The translations under genes were made by a program, and so were the position numbers. This document shows positions 5,268 through 31,809 of a stretch of DNA of 64,000 nucleotides, in pieces. The DNA lies in NCBI RefSeq assembly GCF_030811555.1, contig NZ_JAUSQZ010000001.1, positions 124,001 to 188,000 of the forward strand, in the 5' to 3' direction. Origin of the DNA: Kineosporia succinea (GTDB lineage Bacteria > Actinomycetota > Actinomycetes > Actinomycetales > Kineosporiaceae). The first letter of the stretch is position 1. Each line of letters begins with the position of its first letter. The notes beneath the pieces are model-generated. The model was given only the letters and a program-made list of their open reading frames with translations, was not told the origin of the DNA and did not search any database.

Positions 5268-5281
5268 GGACGCGAAGGTAA

Positions 5282-5296
5282 TGAGAATGCTTTTCA
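5282..5296 (-). promoter_or_regulatory. Second Zur-like operator, upstream of YibE/F
   Basis: On the minus strand the sequence reads TGAAAAGCATTCTCA, identical at 13 of 15 positions to the box at 2060-2074. It ends 14 bases before the ATG at 5267, where it would cover the promoter of a short-leader or leaderless transcript. This arrangement is the same as at the COG0523 gene. Confidence 0.65.
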
Positions 5297-5384
5297 CTGT
5301 CCACCCGGCCCCCGTCCGACGCCGGAGACCGGCCGGGATCAGGCCCCGGGAAGACCTGCCGCACAGCGAGAATCAGCGGGTGAC

Positions 5385-5642
5385 CTACACGGCCGCGGGC
5401 TCGGCCGACGGTGCCGGTCCCGGCTCGACGTCGGCAAGCGACGAGCAGGCCACGACCCACTCCCCCACGGTCTTGCGATGCTCCCCACCCCGCCAGCCGC
5501 ACTCCGGGCACTTCGGCCCCATCAGCGAGGTCAGATCCTCGTCGGACAGGGCAGGGATCGGGGCGCCGGGCATCATCCGAGCACCATGACACCAATCGGT
5601 GTCACAAACCGCCGACCGGACGTCACCCGGAGCGAGATTCAT
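5385..5642 (-). CDS. Small hypothetical protein with one CPxCGW zinc-ribbon half
   Basis: Up to 85 residues; a more likely start is one of the two adjacent ATGs at 5576/5573, giving about 63 residues. The only motif is GPKCPECGWRGG, half of a zinc ribbon, followed by VGEWVVACSS. Codon bias is normal for this genome. No family recognised. It lies between the YibE/F gene and the sugar-transport operon, on the strand opposite the latter. Confidence 0.4.
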   Translation of the reverse strand: MNLAPGDVRSAVCDTDWCHGARMMPGAPIPALSDEDLTSLMGPKCPECGWRGGEHRKTVGEWVVACSSLADVEPGPAPSAEPAAV

Positions 5643-5705
5643 CCGAAGGGACGACCACGACCGTTCGTCGCCAGACTTGTCACGTCTGTCGCTTTCGGCG
5701 CAGGT

Positions 5706-5731
5706 TTACCGCTAATTTCCTTTACCGGTAA
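5706..5731. promoter_or_regulatory. Tandem LacI-type operators before the alpha-xyloside operon
   Basis: TTACCGGTAA at 5722-5731 is a perfect palindrome, and TTACCGCTAA at 5706-5715 is the same with one mismatch, 16 bp upstream. Short palindromes centred on CG are typical LacI-family operators. The pair lies about 100 bp before the binding-protein start, and a LacI-type gene closes the locus (11261-12325), so it is the likely ligand. Confidence 0.55.
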
Positions 5732-5828
5732 TCCTGCGGAAAGCGCAGGCCAGGCATCGGAGTGGATGCCCCCACTCCCGCATCCGGGATCGCCGCGATC
5801 ACCGGGGGAACTACAAGGAGGTAGTGCC

Positions 5829-7151
5829 GTGGGACAACGACGCATCGTCACCGGCAGCGCACTGGCGCTCACCGCGACCCTGCTCCTCGCCGCCTGCAGC
5901 GGGGGCAGCGACTCCGCCGGGAGCAGCGAGGACATCGACACCGCCCCCAAGGGCGACGGCCAGACGCTGACCATCTGGACGTACGAGAGCGCGGACAGCG
6001 CCATGGGCATCGCCTGGGACAAGGCGATGGAGAAGTTCACCGCCGAGACCGGCGCCAAGGTCGACTTCCAGCTCAAGAGCTTCGAGCAGATCAACCAGAG
6101 CGCCAGCCAGGTGCTCAACTCCGACTCCGCGCCCGACGTGATGGAGTACAACAAGGGCAACGCCACCAGCGGCCTGCTCTCCAGCCAGGGCCTGCTCACC
6201 GACATCGGCCCGGCCGTGGAGGCCTACGGCTGGGGCGACAAGCTCAGCTCCACCCTGCAGACCACGGCGAAGTACAGCGACGCCGGCGTGATGGGCACCG
6301 GCAACTGGTACGGCATCCCCAACTACGGCGAGTACGTCCAGGTCTACTACAACAAGGACCTTTTCGAGAAGTACGACCTCGAGGTGCCGACCACCCTCGA
6401 CGAGTTCACCACCGTCCTGCAGAAGTTCAAGGACGAGGGCATCACCCCGCTGTCCGAGTCGGCCTCGGAGTACCCGCTCGGCCAGCTCATCTACCAGCTC
6501 GCCCTGCTCAACGCCGACCGCCAGTGGGTCACCGACTACCAGACCTACACCGCCCCGGCCGATTTCCACGACGCGAACTGGACCGCCGCGGCCACCACCG
6601 TCAAGGAGTGGGTGGACAAGGGCTACATCTCCAAGAACGCGACCGGTATCAAGGCCCAGGACGCCGGTGACGCCTTCACCGCCGGCACCAACCCGATCTT
6701 CTTCTCCGGCAGCTGGTGGCACGGCACCTTCGAGAAGGACGCGAAGTTCGACTGGGGCACGTTCCTTTTCCCGGGCGCCACGATGTCGCCCGGCTCGTCG
6801 GGCAACCTCTGGGTGGTGCCGGAGAAGTCGGACGCCAAGGACCTCGCCTACAAGTTCATCGACATCACCATGTCGCCCGAGATCCAGAACCTCCTGGGCA
6901 ACAACGGCGGGGTGCCGGTGGCGGCCGAGGACGACGCGATCACCGACGAGAAGTCCAAGGAACTCATCACCAACTTCAACAAGCTCAGCGAGCAGGACGG
7001 CCTGGCCTTCTACCCGGACTGGCCCGCCCCCAGCTTCTACGCCGACCTGAACTCCAGCCTCCAGGAACTCGTGAACGGCACGAAAACCGTTGACCAGGTC
7101 CTGGACCAGATGCAGGCCGACTACGACAAGGGCACCGAGGAGTACAAGTAG
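5829..7151 (+). CDS. Sugar ABC transporter, substrate-binding lipoprotein
   Basis: 440 residues. The GTG at 5829 follows AAGGAGG at 5815-5821. A lipoprotein signal peptide ends in the lipobox LLAAC, so the mature protein is lipid-anchored. The remainder fits family 1 (maltose/oligosaccharide) extracellular binding proteins: QTLTIWTYES at the start of the mature part, then FEQINQSASQ and the C-terminal NSSLQELVNGTKTVDQVL. It would capture an oligosaccharide, probably a xyloside given the GH31 enzyme downstream. Overlaps the next gene by one base. Confidence 0.93.
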   Translation: MGQRRIVTGSALALTATLLLAACSGGSDSAGSSEDIDTAPKGDGQTLTIWTYESADSAMGIAWDKAMEKFTAETGAKVDFQLKSFEQINQSASQVLNSDSAPDVMEYNKGNATSGLLSSQGLLTDIGPAVEAYGWGDKLSSTLQTTAKYSDAGVMGTGNWYGIPNYGEYVQVYYNKDLFEKYDLEVPTTLDEFTTVLQKFKDEGITPLSESASEYPLGQLIYQLALLNADRQWVTDYQTYTAPADFHDANWTAAATTVKEWVDKGYISKNATGIKAQDAGDAFTAGTNPIFFSGSWWHGTFEKDAKFDWGTFLFPGATMSPGSSGNLWVVPEKSDAKDLAYKFIDITMSPEIQNLLGNNGGVPVAAEDDAITDEKSKELITNFNKLSEQDGLAFYPDWPAPSFYADLNSSLQELVNGTKTVDQVLDQMQADYDKGTEEYK

Positions 7152-18170: not shown

Positions 18171-19259
18171 TCAGGGCCGCAGAACAGTCCGCAACCCCGC
18201 GCCCGCCCGCAGGTCCGCGAAAGCCCGTTCCACGTCGTCCAGCGTTCCGCCCGAACCGACGAGCCGGGACAGCGGCAACCGGCCGGAGCGGTGAAGCGCT
18301 GCGATGCGCGGGAAGTCGACCGAGGGAACGCTGGAGCCGTAGTTGCAGCCCAGCACCGAGATGCCGCGGTCGGCCAGGTCGAACGGGTTCAGCGAGACGC
18401 TGGCGTCGAAGCCGGTCATGCCCACGATCACGGCCTGGCCCCCGGCCCGCAGCAGGCCCGGCATCGACTCGATCGTCGGCACCCGGCCGATCGCCTCGAA
18501 CACGTGGTGCGCACCGCCGGTGATCTCCAGGACGCGCTCGGCGAGCGCCGGGTCGTCACCGCGAAGCGTGTGCGTGGCACCCAGTTCCGAGGCCAGTTCC
18601 AGACGCGGTCCGGAAAGGTCCACGGCGACAATCGGATCCGCGCCGACCAGGGCGAGCCCGAGCACCGCGGCCTGACCGACGCCTCCGACCCCGATCACCA
18701 CGCCGGACTCCCCCGGCCGCACGCCGGCCGTGTTCGTCACCGCGCCGACCCCCGTCGTGACCGCGCAGCCGATGAGCGAGGCGACGTCGAGGGGGACGTC
18801 GTCGGCGACGGTGATCGCGGCCGCCTCGGGCACCACGACGTACTCGGAGAAGGTGCCGACGCCGAGGAAGGGCAGCACGTCCTCGGCGTAGGGCGTGGAA
18901 CCGTCGGGAAGCGTGTTGGCGGTGGCCGTGGTGTTGGCGCACAGCCAGGCCCGTCCGGCCGCACACGCGTCGCAGCGGCGGCACGGGGCGAACCACGAGA
19001 GGACGACGTGGTCACCGACGCGGACGTCGCGCACGAGCGGTCCCACGGCCTCCACGACGCCGGCGCCCTCGTGACCGAGCACCAGGGGCGTGTCCACGGG
19101 CCAGTCGCCGTCGACGATGTGCAGGTCGGAGTGGCAGACGCCGGTCGCGACGATCTTCACCTGTACCTGGTCGGCGACCGGTTCGGCGAGGGTGAGGGTC
19201 TGCAGCTGGGTCTTCCGCGTGGCCGGGTCGAAGACCACGGCCCGGGTCGGCAGGCTCAT
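18171..19259 (-). CDS. Zinc-dependent alcohol dehydrogenase
   Basis: 362 residues, medium-chain family. Catalytic zinc ligands are in GVCHSDLHIVDGD and GHEGAG; the structural zinc site is CRRCDACAAGRAWLC; the NAD(P) fold has GVGGVGQAAVLG. Class I/III-like. Last of a three-gene operon with a ureohydrolase and an amino-acid permease, so an amino-alcohol or aldehyde intermediate of polyamine or guanidino catabolism is a reasonable substrate. The ATG overlaps the permease stop (ATGA). Confidence 0.9.
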   Translation of the reverse strand: MSLPTRAVVFDPATRKTQLQTLTLAEPVADQVQVKIVATGVCHSDLHIVDGDWPVDTPLVLGHEGAGVVEAVGPLVRDVRVGDHVVLSWFAPCRRCDACAAGRAWLCANTTATANTLPDGSTPYAEDVLPFLGVGTFSEYVVVPEAAAITVADDVPLDVASLIGCAVTTGVGAVTNTAGVRPGESGVVIGVGGVGQAAVLGLALVGADPIVAVDLSGPRLELASELGATHTLRGDDPALAERVLEITGGAHHVFEAIGRVPTIESMPGLLRAGGQAVIVGMTGFDASVSLNPFDLADRGISVLGCNYGSSVPSVDFPRIAALHRSGRLPLSRLVGSGGTLDDVERAFADLRAGAGLRTVLRP

Positions 19260-20698
19260 CGGGACTCCTCGAGTTCGGCGAACGATTCACTGGTGGCCAC
19301 GCGCAGGTGCGGGCGGGCCACGACCAGGTAGATCACGCCGATCACGGTCAGCGCGGAGAACACCGTGACCACGGCCCAGACCACGATCCAGGGGGCACCC
19401 GGCGCGGCCAGACAGGCGCGCGGCCAGGCCACGTTGATCGCCTCGAACACGAGCCAGATCACGGCGATCACGTTGAGCACGAGCCCCTTGCGGCCGAGCT
19501 TCAGCGCACCGGCGGCCGGGTTCCAGCGGCCGGACAGCCGGGCCCGCAGCGCGGTGGCGGTCACGATCAGGAAGACGATGTAGAAGCCGCCGGAACCGAA
19601 CGCGATCAGGGTTCCGGCCGCGTCCCCGTTCAGGCCGAGCAGCAGGCCGAGGGCCGCGAGCACGGTGGTGACCCACAGCGCCACGTGCGGCACCTTGCGG
19701 GCGCTGACCCGGCGCAGCACGTGCGACGCGGGCAGCATGCCGTCGCGGGCCATGCCGTACATGGCGCGGCCGATGTAGGTGAGGATCGACACCGCGCAGG
19801 CGATGAAGGCCACGAGAACCACGGCCACGAAGGGCTTGCCGGCCCAGGCGCCGAACGCCTCGACCACGGCCGCGTAGACCGGGTCGATCGTCTCGCCGCT
19901 CTCGGCCGCCGCCACGTCACCGTACGACAGGGTGACCGACAGGCCGGTCAGCAGCACGACGAGACCCACCGAGGTGAGCGAGCGCAGGATCGCGCGGGGC
20001 ACCTCGCGCTGCGGGTCGACGGTCTCCTCGGACACCTGTGAGCAGGCGTCGAAACCCAGGAAGGCCCAGCCGCCGACCGCGAGCGCGGCCAGGAACCCGG
20101 CGAAACCGCCACCGTTGGAGGGACCTTCGAAGAGCAGTGAGAGGTCGTGGTTGCGGAAGAAGAGCAGCAGGGCGATCGAGATGCCCACGGAGGCAACCGC
20201 TTCGGCCGCGATACCGGCGTTGAGGAACCACTTGAGCGGGTTCACACCCAACTGGTTCAGGGCGACCGCGAGCAGCAGGAGAGCCACTCCACACGCGACC
20301 CGACCGCCCGAGGAGAGCACCTCGTCCGTGAACAGCGACCACAGCCAGGGCGCGCCCAGGTAGGCGACCGTGGTGAGGGACGCGATCGCGGAGGCCAGGT
20401 AGAGGAAACCGGTGAACCAGCCCGTGCGGTCACCGGCGAGGCGGCGCACCCACTGGTAGCAGCCGCCGGCGATCGGCCACTGCGAGGCCAGTTCGGCGTA
20501 CACGGTGGCGACGGTCAGCTGGAGCACCAGCACCAGGGGGATCAGCCAGACCCACGACGGGCCGGCGGTGACGTAGCCGAGCGAGACCACGGCGTAGATG
20601 CCGACGACCGGGGAGATCGTGGCGAAGCCGATGGAGAAGGTGGACCACAGGCTGAGGCCGCGCTGGAGTTCCTGCGCGTAGCCGGTGTCTTGCGTCAT
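19256..20698 (-). CDS. APC-family amino acid/amine permease
   Basis: 480 residues with about twelve helices. The N-terminal consensus reads [27 protein letters not shown], as in APC amino-acid/GABA-type transporters; [12 protein letters not shown] and [14 protein letters not shown] are conserved loops. Position between a ureohydrolase and a dehydrogenase suggests uptake of an amine such as agmatine, putrescine or guanidinobutyrate. Overlaps both neighbours by four bases. Confidence 0.9.
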
Positions 20699-21672
20699 TG
20701 CTCGACACCCTTCCGGTTCCGTTGGGTGGCGCGGTTGACGGAGAGCAGGCTGACCAGGTCGTAGGCGACGTGTGAGGCCGCGACAGAGGTGATGTCGGCG
20801 TGGTCGTAGGCCGGGGCGACCTCGACGACGTCCGCGCCGATCAGGTCGGAGCCGTTCAGCCCGCGCAGGATCTCCAGCAGTTCGCGGGAGGTGAGCCCTC
20901 CGGCCTCCGGGGTGCCGGTGCCGGGTGCGTGGGCGGGGTCGAGCACGTCGATGTCGATCGAGACGTAGAGGGGGCGTTCGCCGATGCGGCTCCTCAGCCT
21001 GCCGACGACCTCGTCGACGCCCTGGCGCATGACGTCGGCGGAGGTGACGATGCCGAAGCCGAGGCGCTGGTCGTCGGTGAGGTCGGCCTTGCCGTAGAGC
21101 GGGCCGCGGGTGCCGACGTGACTCAGGGCCTCGGTGTCGACGATCCCCTCCTCCACGGCGCGGCGGAACGGGGTGCCGTGGGTGTACGGCTCGCCGAAGT
21201 AGGTGTCCCAGGTGTCGAGGTGAGCGTCGAAGTGCAGGAGCGCGACCGGACCGTGGCGCTGGGCGACGGCGCGCAGCAGGGGCAGGGACAGGGTGTGGTC
21301 GCCGCCGATCGTGACCACCGCGGCGCCGGTGTCCATCAGGGCGCCGACCTGTTCCTGCACGGTCTCGACGGCCTCGCCGATGTCGAACGGGTTGACCGCG
21401 ATGTCCCCGGCGTCGACGACCTGGGTGGTGGCGAACGGGGAGACGTCGAGGCCCGGATGGTAGGGGCGCAGCAGGCGGCTGGTCTCGCGCACCGCGGACG
21501 GGGCGAAGCGGGCGCCGGGACGGTAGGAGACGCCGGAGTCGAACGGGATGCCGACCACGGCGATGTCGGCGCTCGGGACCTCGTCGAGGCGGGGAAGACG
21601 GGCGAAGGTGGCGGGCCCGGCGAAGCGCGGTACTCGGGAGGAGTCGACGGGACCTTTCGGCGTTTCGGTCAC
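20695..21672 (-). CDS. speB: Agmatinase/guanidinobutyrase-type ureohydrolase
   Basis: 325 residues from a GTG at 21672 with AAAAGGA before it. Binuclear manganese ligands are present: [17 protein letters not shown] and [19 protein letters not shown]. It would cleave urea from agmatine or a guanidino acid; the family does not let me decide between them, and the gene symbol is only a family label. First of the leftward operon, divergent from a PucR regulator. Confidence 0.88.
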
Positions 21673-21757
21673 AGAAGTCCTTTTCCCTTGGGCCGTCCGG
21701 GCCTTTCGCGGACGGCTGCGCTTGACCATAAGGTCACCGCCCGGCCATGGTCACGGG

Positions 21758-23269
21758 ATGTTCCGACCCAACGGGGGCCCTACCCGGGATGCTTCGTCCC
21801 CGGCCGCACCCCCTTCACCCGAGACCGTCTCGCTGGCCGCCCTGACCGGTCTGGACCTCACGTGGCTGACCGGCTCCGAGGCCCGGGTCCGGTGGGCTCA
21901 CGTCAGCGAGCTGGAAGACCCCGCGCCCTACCTGGCCGGGGGTGAGCTGCTGCTGACGGCGGGGCGGAACCTGCCGCACGACGAGCCCGCCGTCCTGGAC
22001 GCCTATGTGGCCTCGCTGGCGGGCGCCGGGGTGGCCGCGATCGGGTTCGGGCTGGCGCCGGTGCACGCGCAGGTGCCCGCGCTGCTGGTGAAGGCCTGCG
22101 AGAAGCACGGCCTGCCGCTGGTGGCGGTGCCGGAGCGGACGCCGTTCCTGGCGGTGAGTCAGGCCGTGGCCGACGCGCTGGAGCAGCAGCGTTCCGACCA
22201 GCGGCGGGTGGCTTCCGAGGCGCAGGGGCGGATCACCCGGGCCGCGCTGCGGGGTCAGCCGCGGGTGCCGGCGGTGCTGGCCGAGCTCGCGACGGCGATC
22301 GGGGGCTGGGCCGTGCTGCTCGACGCCACCGGCCGTCCGGTGCACCACTCCCCCGGCGCTCCCGATCCGACGCTCGACACGTTGCGGCTCGCCGTGCGGC
22401 TCGCGCAGGGATCGGGCCCGCGCAGTGCGACCGACGTGATCGGCGGCGTGCACATCGACCTGCACCCGGTGGACTCGGCGCAGTCGCACCGGCACGTGCT
22501 CCTGCTGGGCCGCGACACCCCGCTGACCGCCGCCGACCGCACGGTGCGGGCGGTCGGGGTGGGGCTGCTGGCGTTGCTGGCGGACTCCGAACGCACGGCG
22601 GGCGGTACCCAGAACCGGCTGCTGACCAGGCTTCTCACCGAAGGGCCGGAGCTGTCGCCGCACAGCGCGCGGTTGTTGCGCACGCTGGTGCCCGAAGGGC
22701 CGGTGCGGGTGCTGCGGGCGGCGCGCACCTCGATGCCCGAGGGGGAGCCGGTGTCGATGGCGGACGAGCTGCGCACCTCACTCGTGGACGTCACCGACGA
22801 CGATCTGGTCGCGGTGGTGCCCGCGCAGCTGGGGGTCGAGGAGCTGTCCGGGTTGCACGTGCGGACGGGGTGGCTGGCGGCGCTGAGTCGTCCGGTGCCG
22901 CTGGCACAGGTGTCGGACGCCGATCAGGAGGCCCGCCGTCTGCTGGAACGGGCCGTGGTGGCCGGGGAACCGCTGGTGGGACGCTCGGCCGGGTCGGGGG
23001 TGGGCACGCTGGTCGACCGGTCGATGGCGGAGGCCTGGGCCGGCGAGCTGCTCGGGCCGCTGGTGCCGGTCGAGGGGGGCGAGCTGCTCGGCCTGCTGCG
23101 GGTCTTCCTGACGCACCACGGCAGCTGGGACGCGACGGCCCGCGCCACCGGCCTGCACCGCAACAGCGTGCGGCACCGGATCGCCCGGGTGGAACGGCTT
23201 CTGGAGACCGACCTGGGCGATCCGGCGGTGCGGGCGGATCTGTGGCTGGCGCTGGCCTGGCACGCCTAG
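21758..23269 (+). CDS. PucR-family transcriptional regulator
   Basis: 503 residues. The N-terminal PucR domain contains SELEDPAPYLAGGELLLTAG; a central GGDEF-like/CdaR segment follows; the C-terminal helix-turn-helix has the family motif FLTHHGSWDATARATGLHRNSVRHRI. It is divergent from the ureohydrolase operon with an 85-bp gap and is its likely regulator. The last codons are part of the unit that is tandemly repeated just downstream. Confidence 0.92.
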   Translation: MFRPNGGPTRDASSPAAPPSPETVSLAALTGLDLTWLTGSEARVRWAHVSELEDPAPYLAGGELLLTAGRNLPHDEPAVLDAYVASLAGAGVAAIGFGLAPVHAQVPALLVKACEKHGLPLVAVPERTPFLAVSQAVADALEQQRSDQRRVASEAQGRITRAALRGQPRVPAVLAELATAIGGWAVLLDATGRPVHHSPGAPDPTLDTLRLAVRLAQGSGPRSATDVIGGVHIDLHPVDSAQSHRHVLLLGRDTPLTAADRTVRAVGVGLLALLADSERTAGGTQNRLLTRLLTEGPELSPHSARLLRTLVPEGPVRVLRAARTSMPEGEPVSMADELRTSLVDVTDDDLVAVVPAQLGVEELSGLHVRTGWLAALSRPVPLAQVSDADQEARRLLERAVVAGEPLVGRSAGSGVGTLVDRSMAEAWAGELLGPLVPVEGGELLGLLRVFLTHHGSWDATARATGLHRNSVRHRIARVERLLETDLGDPAVRADLWLALAWHA

Positions 23270-23278
23270 GACGCCTGG

Positions 23279-23389
23279 CACGCCTTGGCGCCTGGCACGC
23301 CTGGCACGCCTTGGCACCTGGCACGCCTTGGCACCTGGCACGCCTTGGCACCTGGCACGCCTTGGCACCTGGCACGCCTTGGCGCCTGG
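23279..23389. repeat. 17-bp tandem repeats downstream of pucR
   Basis: Seven units of CACGCCTTGGCACCTGG, one shortened and two with a G for A. The motif CTGGCACGCC also forms the last codons of pucR, so the array seems to have been seeded from the gene end. Non-coding by context. Confidence 0.85.
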
Positions 23390-23443
23390 GGCGCCTGGGG
23401 CCTGTCGCCGGGAGCCCTCACCTACACCTGGTCCACACCTCGC

Positions 23444-24634
23444 CTACACCTGGTCGAAGAAGTTCTCCTGGATGGCGTTGAGGGTGCGGAACTGGTCGAC
23501 GGACAGCTTCTCCGGATCGATCTCGCGGCCCATCACGTCTTCGAGCAGCAGGATGAACTCCATGAAGCTGAGCGAGTCGAGCAGCCGGGTCTCGATCAGG
23601 TCGAGGTCGGGCGGGATGGCCTCGGTGCGGCCGGTGCGCTCCTTGAGCCAGTCGGTGACGTGCTCGATCATGCTGTCTCCCTGGGGGTTCTGGTCGAACC
23701 GGGCCAGAACGGCCTGCACCGAGGCCGCCTCCGTCACCCGGTCGCAGGATTCGCCGCAGTAGAGCGCCATCTCGTCGATCGCGCCCTGGGTGAGCACCGA
23801 GGGGGTGGCGGCGCTGTAGCGGGCGACGGGCAGCCGCCGGCCGTCGACGGTGGTGATGGCGATGAACGACGCGCGGTGCCGGTGCTTCGCCCGGGTCGTG
23901 GCGTTGGCGAGCACGCGATGCCGGCGGCCCGGCCATCCGATGTCGAAAACGCTGGTGACGGTGGTGCTGTCGGCGCTCGCCTCGAGCACCCTTCGTTTGA
24001 ACAGCGGATGCGCGTCGGACTCCTCGGTGGGCACGAAGAGCGTGCCGGCCAGGGCTCCGTCGGCTCCACCGGCCCGGGCCCTCTGCAGGTCGGCGGGAGT
24101 CGCGATGCCACCCGCCACCGCCAGCACGGCCCGGGGATGGCGGGCCCGTACGCGCCGCAGCAGCTCGTCACGGCTGCTGTTGCCGAGCAGGTGCCCACCG
24201 GCCTCGGTGCCCTGCAGCACCACCACGTCGGTGCCCAGGTTCACGGCCCGGTCGGCGTCGGTGACGGTGCCGACCTGCACCACCACCGGATGCCCGACCG
24301 CCCGCGCCGCCCGGATCGTGGGCACGTCGGGCAGGCCGAAGAACGTGACGAAACCATTGTCGGGCAGCGCCTTCACCGCCATCTCGACCTGCTGGTGCGC
24401 GGTCTGAGCGCCCACCACCTCGGGGATCACGTTGATCCCGAAGGGCGCGGTGGTGGACGCGGCGGTCGCCTCCACCACCTCCGTCACCCGGGGCACGGAG
24501 AGCTTGTAGAGACCGAGCACACCCCCGGCCCCGGCGCTGGACACCGCCGCCGCCAGACGCGGACCGGCGACACCGCCCATGCCCGCCTGGATCAGGGGGA
24601 TGCGCAGGCCGAGGACGCGGCACAGGGCGTTCAC
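23444..24634 (-). CDS. Nitronate monooxygenase-like protein fused to an acyl carrier domain
   Basis: 396 residues. Residues 1-310 form an FMN TIM barrel of the nitronate monooxygenase (2-nitropropane dioxygenase) family: PLIQAGMGGVAGPRLAAAVS, FGINVIP, and GTEAGGH with the family's catalytic-position His148. Residues about 322-396 are a carrier-protein domain, IETRLLDSLSFMEFILLLED, with the phosphopantetheine serine S354. The linker codes for an ATG at residue 322 preceded by an AGGGAG ribosome-like site, so a free carrier protein may also be made. The start overlaps the ligase stop (ATGA). Probably carries the amino acid loaded by the ligase; the barrel may oxidise or detoxify a nitronate. 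Confidence 0.88.
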   Translation of the reverse strand: MNALCRVLGLRIPLIQAGMGGVAGPRLAAAVSSAGAGGVLGLYKLSVPRVTEVVEATAASTTAPFGINVIPEVVGAQTAHQQVEMAVKALPDNGFVTFFGLPDVPTIRAARAVGHPVVVQVGTVTDADRAVNLGTDVVVLQGTEAGGHLLGNSSRDELLRRVRARHPRAVLAVAGGIATPADLQRARAGGADGALAGTLFVPTEESDAHPLFKRRVLEASADSTTVTSVFDIGWPGRRHRVLANATTRAKHRHRASFIAITTVDGRRLPVARYSAATPSVLTQGAIDEMALYCGESCDRVTEAASVQAVLARFDQNPQGDSMIEHVTDWLKERTGRTEAIPPDLDLIETRLLDSLSFMEFILLLEDVMGREIDPEKLSVDQFRTLNAIQENFFDQV

Positions 24635-25935
24635 CGGAGGGCACTTCGCGACTCGGCGGCGGGCAGGTCGCCCGGGCGGAGCTCGGGCAGGAGCGGCTCC
24701 CCCGGCGCGGGCAGGTCGCCCGGGCGGAGCTCGGGCAGGAGCGGCTCCCCCGGCGCGGGCCGCTCGGATGCCTGCGCGTCATCATCGGTCGGTGGGGGCT
24801 CTGCCGCCGATTCCTCGTCGGCCGCACGCAGCACGGCGGTGCGGGCGGCCTCGAGGTCTCCCTCGAAGGTGGCCGTCAGCACGCCCACCCACCTCTCCAG
24901 GCCGAAGGCCACACACCCGGTGACGGCCGGCACTCCCCCGGCCGTGATGCGGCAGCGCTCACCGAAGAAGTTGCGGTGGTAGTTCATCGAGGCGATGGCG
25001 GTGCCGTCGAGCGAGACGTACTCCTCCTTGACCGGCTCGACCTTCTGGAAGAACGCACGCGACCCGCCGGCCTGGAAGAACGGGTCGGTGGCGGGCTGCC
25101 GCTCGGTCCGGACGCCGAGCTGCCGCAGGAACCGGGTGAGCCGCTCGTGGTGCCGGGTCAGGTGCGCCCGCACGACCTCGGTGGTGCCGACGCAGACGAT
25201 CTCGCGCATGGTGAAACCCCAGAGGCGGCGCAGGCCGTCGTAACGCTCTTCGTTGCGGAAGCAGTGCGCGGCCGTGGTGACGTGACGCGGCCCGTCGAGC
25301 TCGGTGTCGCGCAGGTGCAGGTAGACGCTGTAGCAGGCCGCGGACGGCAGCAGGTACCCCGCGTCGGTGAGGTCGGCCGCCGGGAGGCTCCCGACGTGCT
25401 GCGCCGCGCTGTACGTCTCCAGTTTCTCGGGCCGGAGCCTCGAGGTGGCCACACCCAGGTGCGGGAAGTTCTGGAAGTAGTCGAGCGAGTGCAGGTCGGC
25501 CGCCGACAGCACCGGAGGGAAGGTCTGGTGCTCGGCCCCGGCCTCGAGACCCCAGCGCAGGAACGTGTCGTCGAGCGTTCGCAGCAGCGCGGTGGCCGGG
25601 CCGTCGAGAAAGGCGAGGCCCGCGGCCGGCCGGCCGCCGCCCGCATCCCCGCGCGCGTGCCCGTGCCCCCGGTCGCCGCCGCCCACATCTCCGCGCACGT
25701 TCCCGTCACCTCCGTCGCCGCCCCCCGCATCCCCGCGCACGTTCCCGTCACCTCCGTCGCCGCCCCCCGCATCCCCACGCACGTCCCCGGCACCCCTGTC
25801 ACCGACCCCCGCATCCCCACGCACGTCCGTGTCGCCCCCGTCTCCCCCGCCGCCGGCCCCTACGGCCACGGTGTCTCCCGACGCGTCTTCAAGCCCTTCG
25901 GTGCCTCTCAGCTCGCCCCTCACCTCACCGCTCAT
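24631..25935 (-). CDS. Amino acid:[carrier protein] ligase (class II SerRS-like)
   Basis: 434 residues. The core (about 105-375) matches the truncated, atypical seryl-tRNA-synthetase-like ligases that activate glycine or alanine and pass it to a carrier protein rather than tRNA. Zinc-site residues typical of this group are C201 (SAACYSVY), E245 (MREIV) and C341 (TGCVAFGLERW); class II motif 2 is CFRNEER. The tRNA-binding arm is missing. Both ends carry low-complexity extensions: five 14-residue GD-rich repeats with VRGDAGGGD (about 38-100) and two 16-residue copies of PAPGEPLLPELRPGDL near the C-terminus. The ATG overlaps the oxygenase stop, so the repeat tail is really translated. Confidence 0.88.
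   Translation of the reverse strand: MSGEVRGELRGTEGLEDASGDTVAVGAGGGGDGGDTDVRGDAGVGDRGAGDVRGDAGGGDGGDGNVRGDAGGGDGGDGNVRGDVGGGDRGHGHARGDAGGGRPAAGLAFLDGPATALLRTLDDTFLRWGLEAGAEHQTFPPVLSAADLHSLDYFQNFPHLGVATSRLRPEKLETYSAAQHVGSLPAADLTDAGYLLPSAACYSVYLHLRDTELDGPRHVTTAAHCFRNEERYDGLRRLWGFTMREIVCVGTTEVVRAHLTRHHERLTRFLRQLGVRTERQPATDPFFQAGGSRAFFQKVEPVKEEYVSLDGTAIASMNYHRNFFGERCRITAGGVPAVTGCVAFGLERWVGVLTATFEGDLEAARTAVLRAADEESAAEPPPTDDDAQASERPAPGEPLLPELRPGDLPAPGEPLLPELRPGDLPAAESRSALR
25636..25824 (-). repeat. 42-bp in-frame repeats at the ligase N-terminus
   Basis: About four and a half 42-bp units encode 14-residue blocks like VRGDAGGGDGGDGN. The unit length keeps frame. The repeats make an acidic, glycine-rich, presumably disordered leader not expected in this ligase family. 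Confidence 0.8.
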
Positions 25936-26810
25936 GCCGGCTCGAAGACGCCGATGCGAGTGAAGAAGTCGTTGGTCTTGCGCAGGACCCTGGCGTGTTC
26001 GCGGGCCCGCGCGGGATCGGCCAGGAGCTGCTTGCGCAGCTCGAAACCACCGGGCAGCCCGGCGTCGCGGTAGACCGTGGGGTTGTAGAACGACTCCATG
26101 CAGGTGTCGATGTAACGGCGCAGGTAGGTGGCCAGCTCACGCTGCTCGTCGGGCGGGGTGCCCGTGAGTTTCATCTGATCCCAGAGCAGTTGGACGATGC
26201 GGCAGCCGAAGGCGATGTGGCGTGACTCGTCTTGATGATGGATGCGATTGATGTGGCGCACCGTGGGATGGAGGCGGGAGTCTTCGGCCATCTTCGCGTT
26301 GTAGTGGTCGACGATCTGCTCGAACACCAGGATGCGGGCGAAGACCAGGAAGTTCTCCCAGCCGGGCCGCTGCGTGCCGGTGAGCGGAAGGGTCTTGTCG
26401 GTGTAGATCTTGCCGCCGTACCTCGTGCAGAAGGTGGCGAAGAACCACATGTGCTCGTTCTCCTCACCGATGAAGTGGTGGAAGAAGTCGGAGGGGATCT
26501 CGAAACCCGGGCTGTGCACCCGCCGGGTGACCTCGATCAGCAGCTCACGGATGCCGTGCACGTTGAGGCTGTAGAAGTTGACGCTCTCGAACCGCGACAA
26601 CCGCACCAGCGCCGCCTCGTCGAGCTCGTCGAACACCGCAGTGCCCCAGACCGACAGCAGCTCGGGCGTCATCCACAGCACGTCCGGCGGCAGCTCGTCG
26701 GGCCACTCGAACGTGACGTAGGGATTGTAGTAGTCGTCGCTGGCCTTGGCGCTGAGCCGGTCGAGCAGCTGACGGAACTCCACGGTGTCGAAGTCGGTCA
26801 CCGACGGCAT
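25932..26810 (-). CDS. AurF-type di-iron N-oxygenase
   Basis: 292 residues from the ATG at 26810 (AGGGG site). All seven AurF-type iron ligands can be placed: E75 (SRFESVNF), E117 and H120 (GEENEH), E164 (VFEQIVDHY), H191, E195 and H198 (IHHQDESRH). AurF and CmlI oxidise aryl amines to nitro groups; relatives oxidise aliphatic amines on carrier proteins. Heads the leftward three-gene operon, coupled to the ligase by ATGA. The expected substrate is a carrier-tethered amino acid, made by the two following genes. Shares a 151-bp divergent promoter region with the aminotransferase. Confidence 0.9.
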   Translation of the reverse strand: MPSVTDFDTVEFRQLLDRLSAKASDDYYNPYVTFEWPDELPPDVLWMTPELLSVWGTAVFDELDEAALVRLSRFESVNFYSLNVHGIRELLIEVTRRVHSPGFEIPSDFFHHFIGEENEHMWFFATFCTRYGGKIYTDKTLPLTGTQRPGWENFLVFARILVFEQIVDHYNAKMAEDSRLHPTVRHINRIHHQDESRHIAFGCRIVQLLWDQMKLTGTPPDEQRELATYLRRYIDTCMESFYNPTVYRDAGLPGGFELRKQLLADPARAREHARVLRKTNDFFTRIGVFEPA

Positions 26811-26961
26811 GCTTACCCCTTCGTGAGCGGACATCCAGTCATAATCCCGTGACAGCAAGGATTTTGGAGAACGGGTGCAGTGGGCGTGGGGTTTGCGTTC
26901 CGGCTGAAAACACCGGCCGATGCCTAGGATTCGTTATCCAGCACTGCCACGGGGAGGCTTC

Positions 26962-28224
26962 GTGCACAACCGGCAGAATATCCGCGATCTGATCTACTAC
27001 GAAGTCAGCGACCATCTCATGACCCACGGCGAGGGGATCTACCTCTACGACGCGCACGGCCGCCAGTACATCGACTGCTCGTCCGGCACCTTCAATCTCA
27101 GCCTGGGCTACGGGCATCCGGAGGTGATGGCGGCAGTCCGCGAACAGACGGAGAAGCTCGTGCACGTCACCTCCAGTTTCCAGACCGAGCCGGTGAACGA
27201 CCTGGTGCGCCGCCTGGTCGAGGTCTCGCCGGAATCGCTCACCCAGGTGCACCTCAAGGTCTCCGGCGGGGCCACGGCCAACGAGGGCGCGGTCAAGATG
27301 GCCCAGGCCGCCACCGGCCGCCGCGACGTGATCACGCTGTTCCGCAGCCATCACGGGCAGACCATGATGACCACGGCGATGTCCGGTGAGGCGTTCCGCC
27401 GCGAGCCGTTCCCGCTGCACTTCCCGGGCGTGGTGCACGTGCCGGATCCCTACTGCCACCGGTGTTTCTACCGGCAGCACCGGGAATCGTGCGGGCTGCT
27501 GTGCGTGGAGCGCATCGACGACTTCATCGACCACGCGAGCTCCGGCAGCGTGGCCTGCGTGGTGGTGGAACCGGTGTCCGGCAGCGGCGGCAACGTCGTC
27601 GCCCCCGACGGCTATCTGGCCGCGCTGCGCCGCCTGTGTGACGAGCGGGGCATCGTGCTGATCTTCGACGAGATCCAGACCGGGATCGGCCGCACCGGGC
27701 GGATGTTCGCGGCCGAGCACTTCGGGGTCGAGCCCGACGCCATCACCACCGCCAAGGGTCTCGGTGGATCGGGGATGCAGGTGGCCGCGATCCTCAGCAA
27801 CGACGCGCTGGGCGGGCTGGACGGCTCCTTCCACTCGTTCACCTACGGCGCCAACGTGCTGGCCAGCGCGGCCGCGGCCACCACCCTCGAGGTGATCTCA
27901 CGCCCGGGCTTTCTCGAGAACGTGCGCAAGACCGGAGCCCAGATCACGCAGCGGCTCGAAGGTCTCCAGGCGGCTCACGCGTGCATCAGTGACGTGCGCG
28001 GGCTGGGCCTGATGATCGGCATCGAGCTCGTCGACGCCGAGGGCCGGCCGAACCTGCCCCTGACGCAGCGGGTCGTGCGCCTGGGCCTCGAGAACGGGCT
28101 CCTGTTGCGCACTTCCCGCTACGGCCGGGGCAACGTGGTCAAGATCCGGCCGCCGCTGATCCTCACCTCGGAAGAGGCCGACCTGATCGGCGACCGGCTC
28201 GAGACGGTGTTCGCCCAGATCTAG
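26962..28224 (+). CDS. Class III PLP aminotransferase
   Basis: 420 residues from a GTG preceded by GGGGAGG. PLP contacts are visible: [14 protein letters not shown], the aspartate in [13 protein letters not shown] (D236) and the Schiff-base lysine K265 in TTAKGLGG. A four-cysteine insertion, [14 protein letters not shown] (residues 165-181), occurs in some class III enzymes. Divergent from the N-oxygenase operon and probably part of the same pathway, making or consuming an amino group. Its stop shares the palindrome CTAG with the convergent dioxygenase stop. Confidence 0.9.
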
Positions 28225-28841
28225 TAGGAGGTCTCGGCGGGCTCCGGCGAGGGTTCGGCGGGGAGCGAGGTGTCGACCACGATGTCGATCGTGGCCTCCT
28301 GCTCCCCGCCGTTGCGCGTGATCTCCATCAGGCACTCGGCGCGGAAGTACTTGTCGAGCTTGTTGCGCCGCTCACCCGGGAAGTAGAGCATCGTGGTCAG
28401 CACCCGCCCGCCCGGCGGCTGGACCTTCAGGTGCAGGTGCCGCGTGCGCCCCGGGTAGAGGGCGGGCACGACCGTGTCGAGACGCCAGGTGCCGTCGGGG
28501 GCGGTGAACTGGTGCCCCCGCATCCGGAACCCGTTGTCGTCGTAGATGCCGCTGTCGTCCACCTGCCAGAAGTCGAGCAGCGCACCGGCGACCGGGACGC
28601 CGTCGGTGTCCACGACGCGTCCGTGCACCACCAGGGGCGCGCCGCCCTCCTGATCGGGCCGGAAGTCGGCCTTCAGCGGGGTGTCCGGCTTGTAGTAGGG
28701 CCCCTGCCGCTGCGCCGGGGTGGGTGGCGCGCCGTTGCACCGGGCGGTGGGTGTCAGAACCCCGACCCGATCCACCCCACCCACCACCGCGTCCGCCGTC
28801 CCGCCTTCCGGGCCGTTCTCCTCGAACCCGTTCGTGATCAT
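28221..28841 (-). CDS. Intradiol ring-cleavage dioxygenase family protein
   Basis: 206 residues from an ATG with GGGGAG upstream. The non-haem Fe(III) ligands are present: Tyr in GPYYKPDTP, Tyr and two His in ALYPGRTRHLHLKV. Family members cleave catechol-type rings between the hydroxyls. It is shorter than catechol dioxygenases and lacks their dimerisation helices, like the small uncharacterised dioxygenase-like proteins. Starts 25 bp after the ROK kinase stop, so it may be the last gene of that leftward group. Confidence 0.85.
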   Translation of the reverse strand: MITNGFEENGPEGGTADAVVGGVDRVGVLTPTARCNGAPPTPAQRQGPYYKPDTPLKADFRPDQEGGAPLVVHGRVVDTDGVPVAGALLDFWQVDDSGIYDDNGFRMRGHQFTAPDGTWRLDTVVPALYPGRTRHLHLKVQPPGGRVLTTMLYFPGERRNKLDKYFRAECLMEITRNGGEQEATIDIVVDTSLPAEPSPEPAETSY

Positions 28842-28866
28842 CACAGACTCCCCGTTCGTCGATCCG

Positions 28867-29799
28867 TCAGGCCGGCTTTCCCCGTAGCGCCGCGCCCAGC
28901 TCGGCCAGCGCCAGCTCGGCCAGCACGAAACCACCCGCCGGTCCGGCCATCCCACCCAGCTGGGCCGCGCTCACGAACTCGTCGCGCGCCTGCTCGGGCA
29001 GCCCGGGATACCCCGACAGCGTCTCGGTCAGGCGTGCCCGCACCAGTGGCAGCAGCCCGGGCAGACCACCCGCGACACTGCCGCCGAGAACGAACCGCTC
29101 GGGCGCCACCGTGTAGACGATCGTGCGCAGCCCGGCCGCCAGGTAGGCGGCCTCCCACTCCAGGGCCTGGGCCAGGTCGGTCCCGGTCAGTTGCTCGGCC
29201 GGCCGCCCCCAGCGCGCGGCCAGGGCCGCTCCCCCGGCCATGCCCTCCAGGCAGTCGCCGTGGAAGGGACAGTCACCGGCGAAGTCGTCACCCGGCTGAC
29301 GGGGCACCCCGATGTGCCCCATCTCGGCGTGCACCAGCCCGGCGGCGGGCCGCCCGCCGGTCACCGCCGCGGCCCCGATACCGGTGCCGACCGTCATGTA
29401 GACCGACACGCCGAGCCCCCGCGAGGCACCCCAGCGCCCCTCGGCCAGCGCGGCACCGGCCACGTCGGTGTGGAACCCGATCGGCACGTCGAACTCCGCG
29501 GCCAGCGTGCCGACCACGTCGACGTTCTTCCAGCCGGCCTTCGGGCTGGTCAGGATGAAGCCGTAATCCGGCCGGTCGCGCCGCAGCTCGACCGGGCCGA
29601 ACGAGGCCACCCCCAGGGCGGTCAGCGGCCCGTGCTCGCGCACGTCGGCGGCGAAGAACTCCACCACCCGCCGCAGCGTGGGCTCCGGGTCACCGGTCGG
29701 GATCCGGGTCCGGGCCGTGACCCGGCCGGGCCCGGAACCCACCAGGCAGACGATCTTCGTGCCCCCGGCCTCGACCGCGCCGTAACGGTTCTCGCTCAT
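28867..29799 (-). CDS. ROK-family sugar kinase (fructokinase-like)
   Basis: 310 residues. ATP phosphate loop EAGGTKIVCLVG near the N-terminus, GTGIGAAAV second phosphate motif, and the ROK zinc motif H..CPFHGDCLEG, which is the pattern of fructokinases and mannokinases. Cytoplasmic. The ATG overlaps the stop of the dehydrogenase upstream (ATGA), so the two enzymes probably act on the same sugar or polyol. Confidence 0.9.
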   Translation of the reverse strand: MSENRYGAVEAGGTKIVCLVGSGPGRVTARTRIPTGDPEPTLRRVVEFFAADVREHGPLTALGVASFGPVELRRDRPDYGFILTSPKAGWKNVDVVGTLAAEFDVPIGFHTDVAGAALAEGRWGASRGLGVSVYMTVGTGIGAAAVTGGRPAAGLVHAEMGHIGVPRQPGDDFAGDCPFHGDCLEGMAGGAALAARWGRPAEQLTGTDLAQALEWEAAYLAAGLRTIVYTVAPERFVLGGSVAGGLPGLLPLVRARLTETLSGYPGLPEQARDEFVSAAQLGGMAGPAGGFVLAELALAELGAALRGKPA

Positions 29800-30821
29800 C
29801 GTTCCCCCGGCCAGCCGTCGGGACCCGCGGGAACCCCCGCGTCCGAGCGGATCACCACCTTCATCGCCGAGTAGCCGAGCACCGAGAGAGCCCCGAACGC
29901 GGCCTCGTGGTCGGCCAGCGGGAACTCGTGCGTGACCAGCTCGGGCAGGTCGAGCCCACCGATCAGGTCGACCGCCTGCGGGAACACCTCGGCCGGGTAG
30001 TCACCGGCCCCGATCACCGAGATCCCCCGGTTGGTCAGGCGTAACGGCGTGACCTGCGAGGTGTACGAGTCGTCGAAGCCCATCACCACCACCCGCCCTC
30101 CGTCGGCGACCAGGCCGAGCGCCTCGTCGAGATGGTTGCCGGTGGTCTCGACCACCACGCTCGGGGCCTCACCGACGTCTTCGGCGGGACTCACCACGCG
30201 CCGGAAACGGGACCGGGCCAGATCCAGCCGGTACGGATCCGCCTCGACCACCACCACCCGCCGCGCGAGCCGCTCGCACACCGCGGCCACGAGCATCCCG
30301 ATCGGACCGGCCCCGAGCACGACCACCACGTCGTCGTAGCCCACACCCCCGGCCCGGACGTTGTTGAGCACGCAGGCCAGCGGCTCGATCAGCACCGCCC
30401 GGCGGAACGGCAGGTTCGCCGGCAGCGGGCTGACGAAACGCTCGGGCAGCACCACGAACTCGGCGAAGGTGCCGTCACGGTCGACCCCCACCTCGGTGCC
30501 GGACTTGTTGAGGCAGTGGTTGGTGGCCCCGCGCCGGCAACGGGCGCAGTGCCCGCAGTAGAGCGTGGGATTGACCACCACCCGGTCGCCCTCGGCCAGC
30601 CCGGTCACCGCCTCTCCCACCGACGACACCACCCCCACCGACTCGTGCCCCAGCACCACGCCCGGACGGGCCGGGAAGTGGCCGAGCAGGATCTTGCGGT
30701 CGGTGCCGCAGATGCCGGTGCCGATCACCCGCACCACCACGTCGTCGGGAGCCGAGGGTCTGGGGTCGGGGCGCTCCTCCAGGGCCGCCGCGCCGGGTCC
30801 GAGGTACACCAGTGACTGCAT
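29796..30821 (-). CDS. Zinc-dependent sugar/polyol dehydrogenase (medium-chain)
   Basis: 341 residues. Catalytic zinc motifs GTGICGTDRKILLGHFP and GHESVGVV, structural zinc cysteines CGHCARCRRGATNHC, and the nucleotide fold GAGPIGMLVAAV. The pattern fits threonine/sorbitol/glucose-type dehydrogenases rather than short alcohols. Coupled to a ROK kinase, which suggests oxidation followed or preceded by phosphorylation of a sugar or cyclitol. Confidence 0.88.
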   Translation of the reverse strand: MQSLVYLGPGAAALEERPDPRPSAPDDVVVRVIGTGICGTDRKILLGHFPARPGVVLGHESVGVVSSVGEAVTGLAEGDRVVVNPTLYCGHCARCRRGATNHCLNKSGTEVGVDRDGTFAEFVVLPERFVSPLPANLPFRRAVLIEPLACVLNNVRAGGVGYDDVVVVLGAGPIGMLVAAVCERLARRVVVVEADPYRLDLARSRFRRVVSPAEDVGEAPSVVVETTGNHLDEALGLVADGGRVVVMGFDDSYTSQVTPLRLTNRGISVIGAGDYPAEVFPQAVDLIGGLDLPELVTHEFPLADHEAAFGALSVLGYSAMKVVIRSDAGVPAGPDGWPGER

Positions 30822-30843
30822 CGGCTCTCCTTCAACTCGGATG

Positions 30844-31809
30844 TCAGGTGCTGTCGCCGAGCCGCCTTCGCACGAGCGCGGCGACGCGGGAGAACATGTC
30901 GCCTTCCGGCGGGTGGGCCAGGATGTCGGCCAGGGTGAAAAGGTCGAGCGCCCGGCTGATCTCGAACCAGTCGGGCGGCAGCACGCCGCCCGCGTCGACG
31001 TAGCCGTCGTGGAACCCGGCCACGTACTCGCGGGGGTAGTTCTCGGAGAAGCGCAGCATGTTGCCCACGTCGGTGAGCGGCGAGCCGCTGAACGCGAACT
31101 CCCAGTCGAGCACGGCCGCCACCTCCCAGCGCCCGTGCACGCGGTGCACCACGAGGTTCTTCGGGTTGAAGTCCATGTGCACGAGTTGCCGTGCCCCGGC
31201 GACGGAGTCGACCCGATGGGTGGACGCGAGCGCGAGCGCCAGCAGGTCGCGTTGCTCGCGCCCGGTCAGGACCCGCGCGGCGTGCCCGGCCGCGAGCGCC
31301 CGGTCGACCGCGTCAAGAGGATCGATGAGGACATCCGTGCCGTCCGGTTCGAGCGAACCCTCGCGAAAGGCTCCCGGGGCCGCGAAGCCGACGGCCGCGA
31401 ACTGGGCCAGGACCTGCCCGACGGATCGCCCCAGCGTCTCGCTCTCGGCTGCGGTGGAACGGCTTTGACGATCGAGGACGAGGTCGAGAGGCTCTCCGTC
31501 GACGTACCGGTAGACCAGGGTCGGCTCACCGGACGCCTCGCCGGTGAGGTCGGCGCCGACCACCTCGACCGAGGGCACCACCCCGGCCAGACGCTGCGCG
31601 AGGGCCAGCTCGAGCGCACAGGGGTTGTGCCGGCGGTAGCGCCGCACCACGTAGCGATCGCCGGAAAGCACCGACACGGCCACCATTTCGTGGTTGACGC
31701 CGCCCTCGAGCGGCCGGGCCTCCACGACCTGCTCGCCGGGCAGGACCTCGCCGGTCAGCCATCCGAGCAGCGGATTGCCAAGTCCGGTATGTAATTTCGT
31801 CTCCCCCAT
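30844..31809 (-). CDS. Aminoglycoside phosphotransferase-fold kinase
   Basis: 321 residues. Brenner-type catalytic motif is HMDFNPKNLVV and the metal-binding aspartate is in VLDWEFAFSG, as in the APH/choline-kinase/methylthioribose-kinase fold. N-terminal VVRRYRRHNPCALE supplies the ATP lysine/arginine region. The substrate is not predictable; resistance is only one possibility. First gene of the leftward run with the dehydrogenase and ROK kinase (22 bp gap). Confidence 0.85.
   Translation of the reverse strand: MGETKLHTGLGNPLLGWLTGEVLPGEQVVEARPLEGGVNHEMVAVSVLSGDRYVVRRYRRHNPCALELALAQRLAGVVPSVEVVGADLTGEASGEPTLVYRYVDGEPLDLVLDRQSRSTAAESETLGRSVGQVLAQFAAVGFAAPGAFREGSLEPDGTDVLIDPLDAVDRALAAGHAARVLTGREQRDLLALALASTHRVDSVAGARQLVHMDFNPKNLVVHRVHGRWEVAAVLDWEFAFSGSPLTDVGNMLRFSENYPREYVAGFHDGYVDAGGVLPPDWFEISRALDLFTLADILAHPPEGDMFSRVAALVRRRLGDST

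Follow-up and report, generated by a model that had tools for sequence, protein, structure and literature searches.

Azasugars are sugar mimics whose ring contains nitrogen, and their biosynthesis gene clusters are characterized by a signature of an aminotransferase, a phosphatase, and a dehydrogenase gene (PMC8382821), and transamination, dephosphorylation, and oxidoreduction are named as steps of azasugar formation (PMC8466323; here and below, statements on articles cited by PMC number refer to their accessible parts). In the latter study, 110 of the 2062 Streptomyces genomes carried azasugar clusters, 114 altogether. 'Disordered' clusters, whose products were left unexplained, occurred in 41 genomes and were interleaved mainly with genes for APH, ROK, intradiol dioxygenase, and NAD-binding proteins, and S. 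nojiriensis possessed both a canonical and a 'disordered' cluster. A separate line of work concerns the N-oxidation of carrier-bound glycine. In this pathway, glycine is activated on a carrier protein (PMC12183544) and the nitronate is either O-methylated, as for enteromycin, or denitrified to nitrite by a nitronate monooxygenase (NMO), as described by He & Ryan 2021 (Nat Chem 13:599) according to PMC11035981. Here, a locus of Kineosporia succinea (positions 23444-31809 of a stretch of 64,000 nucleotides, further referred to as the window) is read as a biosynthetic gene cluster for a modified azasugar, consisting of two modules, one for azasugar chemistry and one for carrier-bound glycine N-oxidation. 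We assign a probability of roughly 0.62 to this reading, and the product is probably a modified azasugar.

The initial annotation of the window had described four genes between positions 23444 and 28224 as a free-standing set for N-oxidation of a carrier-tethered amino acid. Open reading frame (ORF) listing, Pfam, and comparisons with Protein Data Bank sequences confirmed these genes, their positions, and their families. The minus strand encodes an AurF-type di-iron N-oxygenase (25932-26858), a class II aminoacyl-tRNA synthetase (aaRS)-like amino acid:[carrier protein] ligase (24631-25935), and a fusion ORF (23444-24634) composed of an NMO/FabK-type flavoenzyme domain (23690-24634) and a carrier protein domain with a DSL serine motif (23444-23689). 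A class III aminotransferase of the azasugar (GabT1-type) clade (26920-28224; Aminotran_3, 319.9 bits) is divergent, on the plus strand. The gene coupling stood as well, except that one of the two overlaps thought to be ATGA is different: AurF and ligase share a four-base ATGA, and ligase and NMO share GTGA, because the NMO start codon is GTG. A homologue search of the window proteins against related loci extended the cluster past position 28224 to position 31809, adding four minus-strand genes. These encode a compact intradiol-dioxygenase-like protein (28221-28955; PF00775, 64.7 bits), with an uncertain annotated start and an 89-base overlap with the next gene, a fructokinase-like ROK-family sugar kinase (28867-29799; PF00480, 170 bits; fructokinase 1xc3, 8.4e-66), a zinc-dependent medium-chain dehydrogenase with a putative GutB1-type role (29796-30821; PF08240/PF00107), and an APH-family phosphotransferase (30844-31809; PF01636, 102.3 bits), the first of the minus-strand cluster genes. 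The cluster thus comprises eight ORFs with nine functions, all of them open. In agreement with the initial annotation, no nonribosomal peptide synthetase (NRPS) or polyketide synthase (PKS) gene was retrieved in the cluster by a Pfam scan of its proteins.

One collinear 11-gene cluster was found in 11 other genomes of soil bacteria (Kitasatospora, Streptomyces-type, and Protofrankia), namely ten Streptomycetaceae, including loci L015 and L016, and L017. Its order is Zn-dehydrogenase, ROK kinase, APH, intradiol dioxygenase, aminotransferase, inositol-monophosphatase-type phosphatase, AurF, ligase, NMO, carrier, and MOSC. Among 80 loci selected by their AurF gene, the APH, Zn-dehydrogenase, ROK, and dioxygenase genes recurred only in L015-L017, together with a close aminotransferase (E 1e-8); these three loci contain an inositol-monophosphatase-family gene between aminotransferase and AurF and, after the carrier gene, a MOSC-like gene (20.8 bits, under the Pfam cut-off of 22.7). 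When the Kitasatospora dioxygenase was compared with 394 Streptomycetaceae genomes, ten matches of 71-100% identity and many weaker ones (about 53% or less) were obtained, and all ten genomes with a dioxygenase of at least 71% possessed matches to all 11 genes in identical order. The four AurF-centred families thus remain together in 11 other genomes, a co-occurrence that the initial annotation had put forward as a check, but as part of a nine-function cluster (11 in the relatives) of azasugar type and not as a free-standing four-gene set. Identities of the window proteins to those of the relatives amounted to 63-70% for AurF, 54-64% for the carrier domain, 67-75% for the aminotransferase, 52-69% for the dioxygenase, 53-65% for the ROK kinase, 57-65% for the Zn-dehydrogenase, and 45-48% for APH. 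In addition, the window proteins retain 83-92% of the relatives' invariant positions, among them the presumed iron ligands and the residues of the zinc site, in an alignment of which some rows overrun frame breaks or assembly gaps (ROK of L017; dioxygenase and ligase of L120), so that fewer columns count as invariant. When four pairs of relatives were compared, every one of the 11 genes had a ratio of nonsynonymous to synonymous substitution rates (dN/dS) under 1, the maximum being 0.60 (NMO, L015/L016); frame breaks or gaps affect the pair L120/L123 (ligase dN 0.284). In L120, the ligase gene (5241-6058) seems to be frame-disrupted or misassembled. Among 396 genomes sampled from the order of the window's organism, the dioxygenase (at E 1e-20) was confined to the genome of the window, and no match to it was found in five genomes of the same genus.

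The azasugar assignment is based on comparison with a canonical cluster. The L120 genome, which is very likely that of the nojirimycin producer S. nojiriensis, also contains an aminotransferase-phosphatase-dehydrogenase cluster (L139), about 400 kb from its 11-gene cluster; AurF had no match within the 16 kb covered there. The aminotransferase and the dehydrogenase of L139 are 63% and 48% identical to the respective queries, the latter value assigning the window dehydrogenase to the GutB1 type, and its phosphatase is 57% identical to that of L017, which in turn shares 57-60% with the phosphatases of L139-L144. In a tree of 21 aminotransferases, with L017 not included and with long outgroup branches that call for caution, the window protein, those of the 11-gene type, and other azasugar-type proteins grouped together (98/98), and four other class III aminotransferases fell apart from this group. 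The PYCxRC core occurs in the window protein and in 11 of 12 azasugar-type proteins (L141 lacks it) and is absent from two controls. Among 70 Kitasatospora genomes, five had a matching phosphatase of at least 79% identity and five had one of 58-59% in another azasugar arrangement. This other arrangement was seen in L140-L144, from five Kitasatospora genomes, with HAD-like and kinase-like genes recognized by eye in L140, L141, and L144. A scan of viral contigs revealed no relative of the aminotransferase. Because of its clade membership and synteny, the aminotransferase most likely makes an amino sugar and is not the generic partner that had been assumed; on the same grounds, recycling of glycine was rejected as its main role.

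The N-oxidation module was assigned gene by gene. AurF scored 112.5 bits with PF11583 (cut-off 29.6), and the seven putative iron ligands (E91, E133-x2-H136, E180, H207-x3-E211-x2-H214), consisting of six ligands plus the extra histidine of N-oxygenases, are invariant in 20 sequences. Their spacing is as in other AurF-type N-oxygenases, that of the C-terminal ligands matching Dob3 (PMC12154687). As a search of solved structures (E up to 1) returned only a chance-level peptidyl-prolyl isomerase (0.82), this assignment rests on Pfam and the ligand pattern. The ligase scored below the Pfam cut-off for tRNA-synt_2b (27 versus 29.3) and far under the NCBIfam equivalog cut-off (124.6 versus 357), and it matched the solved amino acid:[carrier protein] ligase Bll0957 (3mey; E=1.5e-28), its conserved part covering approximately residues 100-370. 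Residues C201, E245, and C341, which we take to be the Cys-Glu-Cys zinc site, are invariant in 17 sequences. As annotated, the ligase has about 100 extra N-terminal residues ahead of where most relatives' matches begin, a Gly/Asp-rich extension encoded by a stretch with a 42-bp tandem repeat (25633-25853, 5.3 copies), and its true start is therefore uncertain; a 48-bp repeat occurs near the C-terminus (24654-24760). The NMO domain scored 129.4 bits with PF03060 (cut-off 28), and H148 of its AGGH motif, presumably a functional residue, is invariant in 15 sequences. The carrier domain (PF00550) scored 20.8 bits, exactly at the threshold of 20.8. In the 11 relatives, NMO and carrier are adjacent genes and are separate wherever ORFs were listed (e.g., L015, L016, and L124). 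AurF, a putative glycine-activating unit, a carrier, and an NMO are present and an LCM-like methyltransferase was not found, which corresponds to a glycine-nitronate denitrification cassette of the He & Ryan type as described at second hand. It is plausible that a cluster without NRPS or PKS gene N-oxidizes an amino acid on a carrier, as the initial annotation had proposed.

The distribution of this core was assessed with an AurF census in named genomes, based on the patterns GEENEHM and [DR]DYYNPY[RVK] and covering the best 80 of 184 confirmed stretches. NMO loci are undercounted by it, because the patterns are carried by none of the eight AurF proteins of L118-L125 and because only these 80 stretches were kept. 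A ligase match was present in 79 of the 80 loci and both ligase and carrier in 78, so the association of AurF, ligase, and carrier is not due to chance. L026 had neither, although about 10 kb downstream were covered, and L045 had a ligase, its carrier being visible only inside a weak NMO-carrier match. An LCM-like methyltransferase, counted anywhere in the stretch at E 1e-6 and not just beside AurF, was found in 71 loci and in none of the six loci with NMO (L015, L016, L017, L018, L052, and L077), making both genes mutually exclusive; neither gene was found in L026, L076, and L091. Weak matches to the NMO query in L023 (34%, opposite strand, approximately 8 kb off) and L045 (27%, C-terminal part) are left out of these NMO loci. 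Similarly, no LCM-like methyltransferase was found in any of the 17 loci (two of them duplicates) of the comparison with all cluster genes. A Methyltransf_2-type methyltransferase lies between NMO and carrier in L018 (11983-14344) and L077, and one that is 47% identical to that of L018 follows the NMO gene of Tistrella mobilis plasmid pTM2 (L145). These three loci represent a variant of the module, with NMO and a Methyltransf_2-type methyltransferase beside AurF, ligase, and carrier, which thus occurs outside the Actinobacteria too. In a phylum-wide sample of 396 genomes, a close AurF was found in three, including that of the window, the other two possessing ligase and carrier and lacking NMO. 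In L074 (Micromonospora qiuiae), the core stands beside NRPS-like and PKS-like genes, as judged by eye, resembling the gene context of enteromycin-class clusters (PMC9967187). In L007, L009, and L010, which belong to the window's own genus, and in L146, the AurF-carrier-ligase triad has neighbours resembling AMP-ligase, ferritin, or ketosynthase genes, which suggests further products; these were recognized by eye in L007 and L010, from the annotation in L146, and among the genes covered in L009. An AurF homologue was found in seven plasmid records, of which two were inspected.

Gene content, conservation, clade membership, and conserved residues are what these data show; from them we infer every substrate, every reaction, and the meeting of both modules in one molecule. 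In the first module, the ROK kinase would supply fructose-6-phosphate, the C2 of which would be aminated by the class III aminotransferase to a 2-amino-2-deoxy-hexitol phosphate. After dephosphorylation, a step that here has to be taken over by another enzyme or circumvented, as the usual phosphatase is lacking, the Zn-dehydrogenase would oxidize the far end to an aldehyde, and the amine would close the nitrogen ring to give the azasugar. The order of these steps is that of the deoxynojirimycin pathway. In the second module, the aaRS-like ligase would load glycine onto the carrier domain and AurF would oxidize the nitrogen of carrier-glycine to a nitronate (or oxime). The fused NMO may oxidize this further, most simply to nitrite and a glyoxylyl-thioester, or, should it not be a classical NMO, yield a product that keeps the nitrogen. 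The C2 product on the carrier (or nitrite) would then be used on the azasugar nitrogen. That the products of both modules meet is suggested by the one gene order conserved across genera, and use of the acyl unit is favoured because a Pfam scan revealed no family match indicating a nitrite-using enzyme among the cluster proteins. Finally, APH may phosphorylate the product for self-protection or activation.

Several observations weigh against this azasugar reading with two modules. No enzyme obviously joining both modules was found in the cluster. A YktC1-type phosphatase, present in all 11 relatives, was found neither in the window nor by matching in its genome, while a trimmed form of the query does find the phosphatase in genome G1141. 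MOSC is absent locally, with one remote homologue (35%) elsewhere in the genome, so that nine of the 11 functions are kept. Compared with all 11 relatives, the aminotransferase is inverted, and APH precedes the dehydrogenase instead of lying between ROK and dioxygenase. Neither the window protein nor a single one of the 12 azasugar-type proteins, that of L139 included, conforms to the strict published aminotransferase consensus SGNXFRXXXFPN...PYCXRC. The modules are separable, since AurF homologues of the same genus (L007-L010) stand without NMO, that of L008 also without ligase. Lastly, among solved structures, FabK reductases scored up to 85 bits against the NMO domain and NMOs such as PA1024 46 bits, which makes its reaction uncertain; the 'putative nitroalkan dioxygenase' 3bo9 scored 81 bits.

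The latter scores are the starting point of the strongest alternative, in which the NMO homologue is a FabK-like or novel FMN enzyme, the nitrogen is kept in the carrier unit (from oxime or nitronate to the amide or amine level), and a nitrogen-containing C2 unit enters the azasugar. The mostly FabK-type top-scoring solved relatives, the fusion of NMO to the carrier here and their adjacency in the 11 relatives, and the lack of a family match for a nitrite-using enzyme are in line with it; however, Pfam NMO was the best family (129 bits), the FabK family model remained far below its cut-off (96.6 versus 453), and NMO denitrification has a precedent (PMC11035981), so that we consider this alternative possible, though on the unlikely side. 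A more specific proposal, rather unlikely, is that the cluster makes a kifunensine-like bicyclic azasugar, namely mannojirimycin from the first module acylated by a glycine-derived C2 unit from the second. Kifunensine is an oxalamide-fused mannojirimycin from Kitasatospora. The two carbons and one nitrogen of such an oxalamide match oxidized glycine, so that the atom count fits, but such a product is unproven. AurF and the NMO-like flavoenzyme would bring the C2 unit to the oxidation level of a glyoxylyl or oxamoyl group, with ring closure needing neither NRPS nor condensation enzyme. If true, this would account for the joint occurrence of azasugar and glycine N-oxidation genes and give some of the 'disordered' azasugar clusters a product. 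No paper on kifunensine gene clusters was found in a search of the accessible literature.

Alternatively, the N-oxidation genes may form a free-standing glycine denitrification cassette, turning the glycine-carrier via a nitronate into nitrite and a glyoxylyl-carrier, with the aminotransferase regenerating glycine from glyoxylate and the sugar genes being unrelated neighbours; the net effect would be a conversion of amino nitrogen into nitrite. Related cryptic cassettes in other bacteria reportedly perform such a denitrification. The chemistry has a precedent (PMC11035981), the Tistrella cassette lacks azasugar genes over the 17 kb viewed, and L018, L052, and L077 are NMO loci without sugar genes. 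Against it, sugar genes and cassette share one conserved order in 11 of 11 relatives, and the aminotransferase, which falls among azasugar aminotransferases, is without a match in L018, L052, and L077, rendering this explanation improbable. Just as improbable is a reading of the window copy as a remnant of the 11-gene cluster in decay, in which phosphatase and MOSC were lost, the aminotransferase was inverted, APH was displaced, and repeats invaded the ligase: these losses and rearrangements, the ligase repeats, and the missing dioxygenase matches in the five same-genus genomes speak for it, but all eight ORFs, with their nine functions, are open and the 83-92% of invariant positions, including putative iron ligands and zinc-site residues, are kept.

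Concerning the surroundings, the genes at 18171-23269, coding for an agmatinase, an amino-acid permease, and an alcohol dehydrogenase opposite a PucR-type regulator, look like an ordinary, separate catabolic unit; a link with the cluster was rejected, as they are not conserved with it. A GC-rich tandem repeat of 17-26 bp (23255-23404) lies in the gap from the PucR-type regulator to the NMO-carrier gene. A C7-cyclitol or aminoglycoside cluster, suggested by the ROK, APH, and Zn-dehydrogenase genes, was rejected too, as no sugar-phosphate cyclase was noticed among the window ORF starts, in which no search aimed at cyclases was made.

The proposed azasugar cluster with its N-oxidation module can be compared with five kinds of described systems. 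PvfB/valdiazen-type di-iron N-oxygenases are said to act on carrier-bound valine, with an NRPS-borne substrate and no NMO. Glycine-derived nitronate pathways resemble the proposed second module in that a diiron oxygenase makes a nitronate and an NMO branch exists (PMC11035981, PMC9967187, PMC12183544); compared by second-hand descriptions, the window differs in its NMO-carrier fusion, the lack of an LCM-type methyltransferase, and its azasugar-type setting. On plasmid pTM2 of T. mobilis, a diiron oxygenase, a small protein, an aaRS-related ligase, an NMO, and a methyltransferase are annotated; diiron oxygenase, ligase, NMO, and carrier are 54%, 49%, 45%, and 50% identical to those of the window, which differs from this cassette with its methyltransferase, separate carrier, and lack of azasugar genes in the stretch viewed. 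Given this cassette and the NMO denitrification described by He & Ryan 2021 (PMC11035981), the initial claim that no described pathway has this set of genes is untenable for the core. In contrast with the gabT1-yktC1-gutB1 clusters for nojirimycin and 1-deoxynojirimycin, to which the aminotransferase (63%) and dehydrogenase (48% to L139) are related, the window lacks the phosphatase and adds ROK, APH, dioxygenase, and the N-oxidation module. The 'disordered' Streptomyces clusters (Park 2021, PMC8466323) share the APH, ROK, and intradiol dioxygenase families with it; in the accessible main text of that article, which leaves the product open, AurF and nitronate occur zero times. No description of both modules in one conserved cluster was found in a literature search, with subscription papers mostly outside its reach, and enteromycin-class compounds are the only product context of carrier-bound glycine N-oxidation in the parts of the literature consulted. 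The present cluster joins this line with that of the 'disordered' azasugar clusters of 2021 and provides a definite 11-gene set (10 of 394 sampled Streptomycetaceae genomes plus Protofrankia) with a testable product class, likely glycosidase inhibitors. It is best read as a new combination of two known kinds of system, an azasugar pathway and a glycine N-oxidation module.

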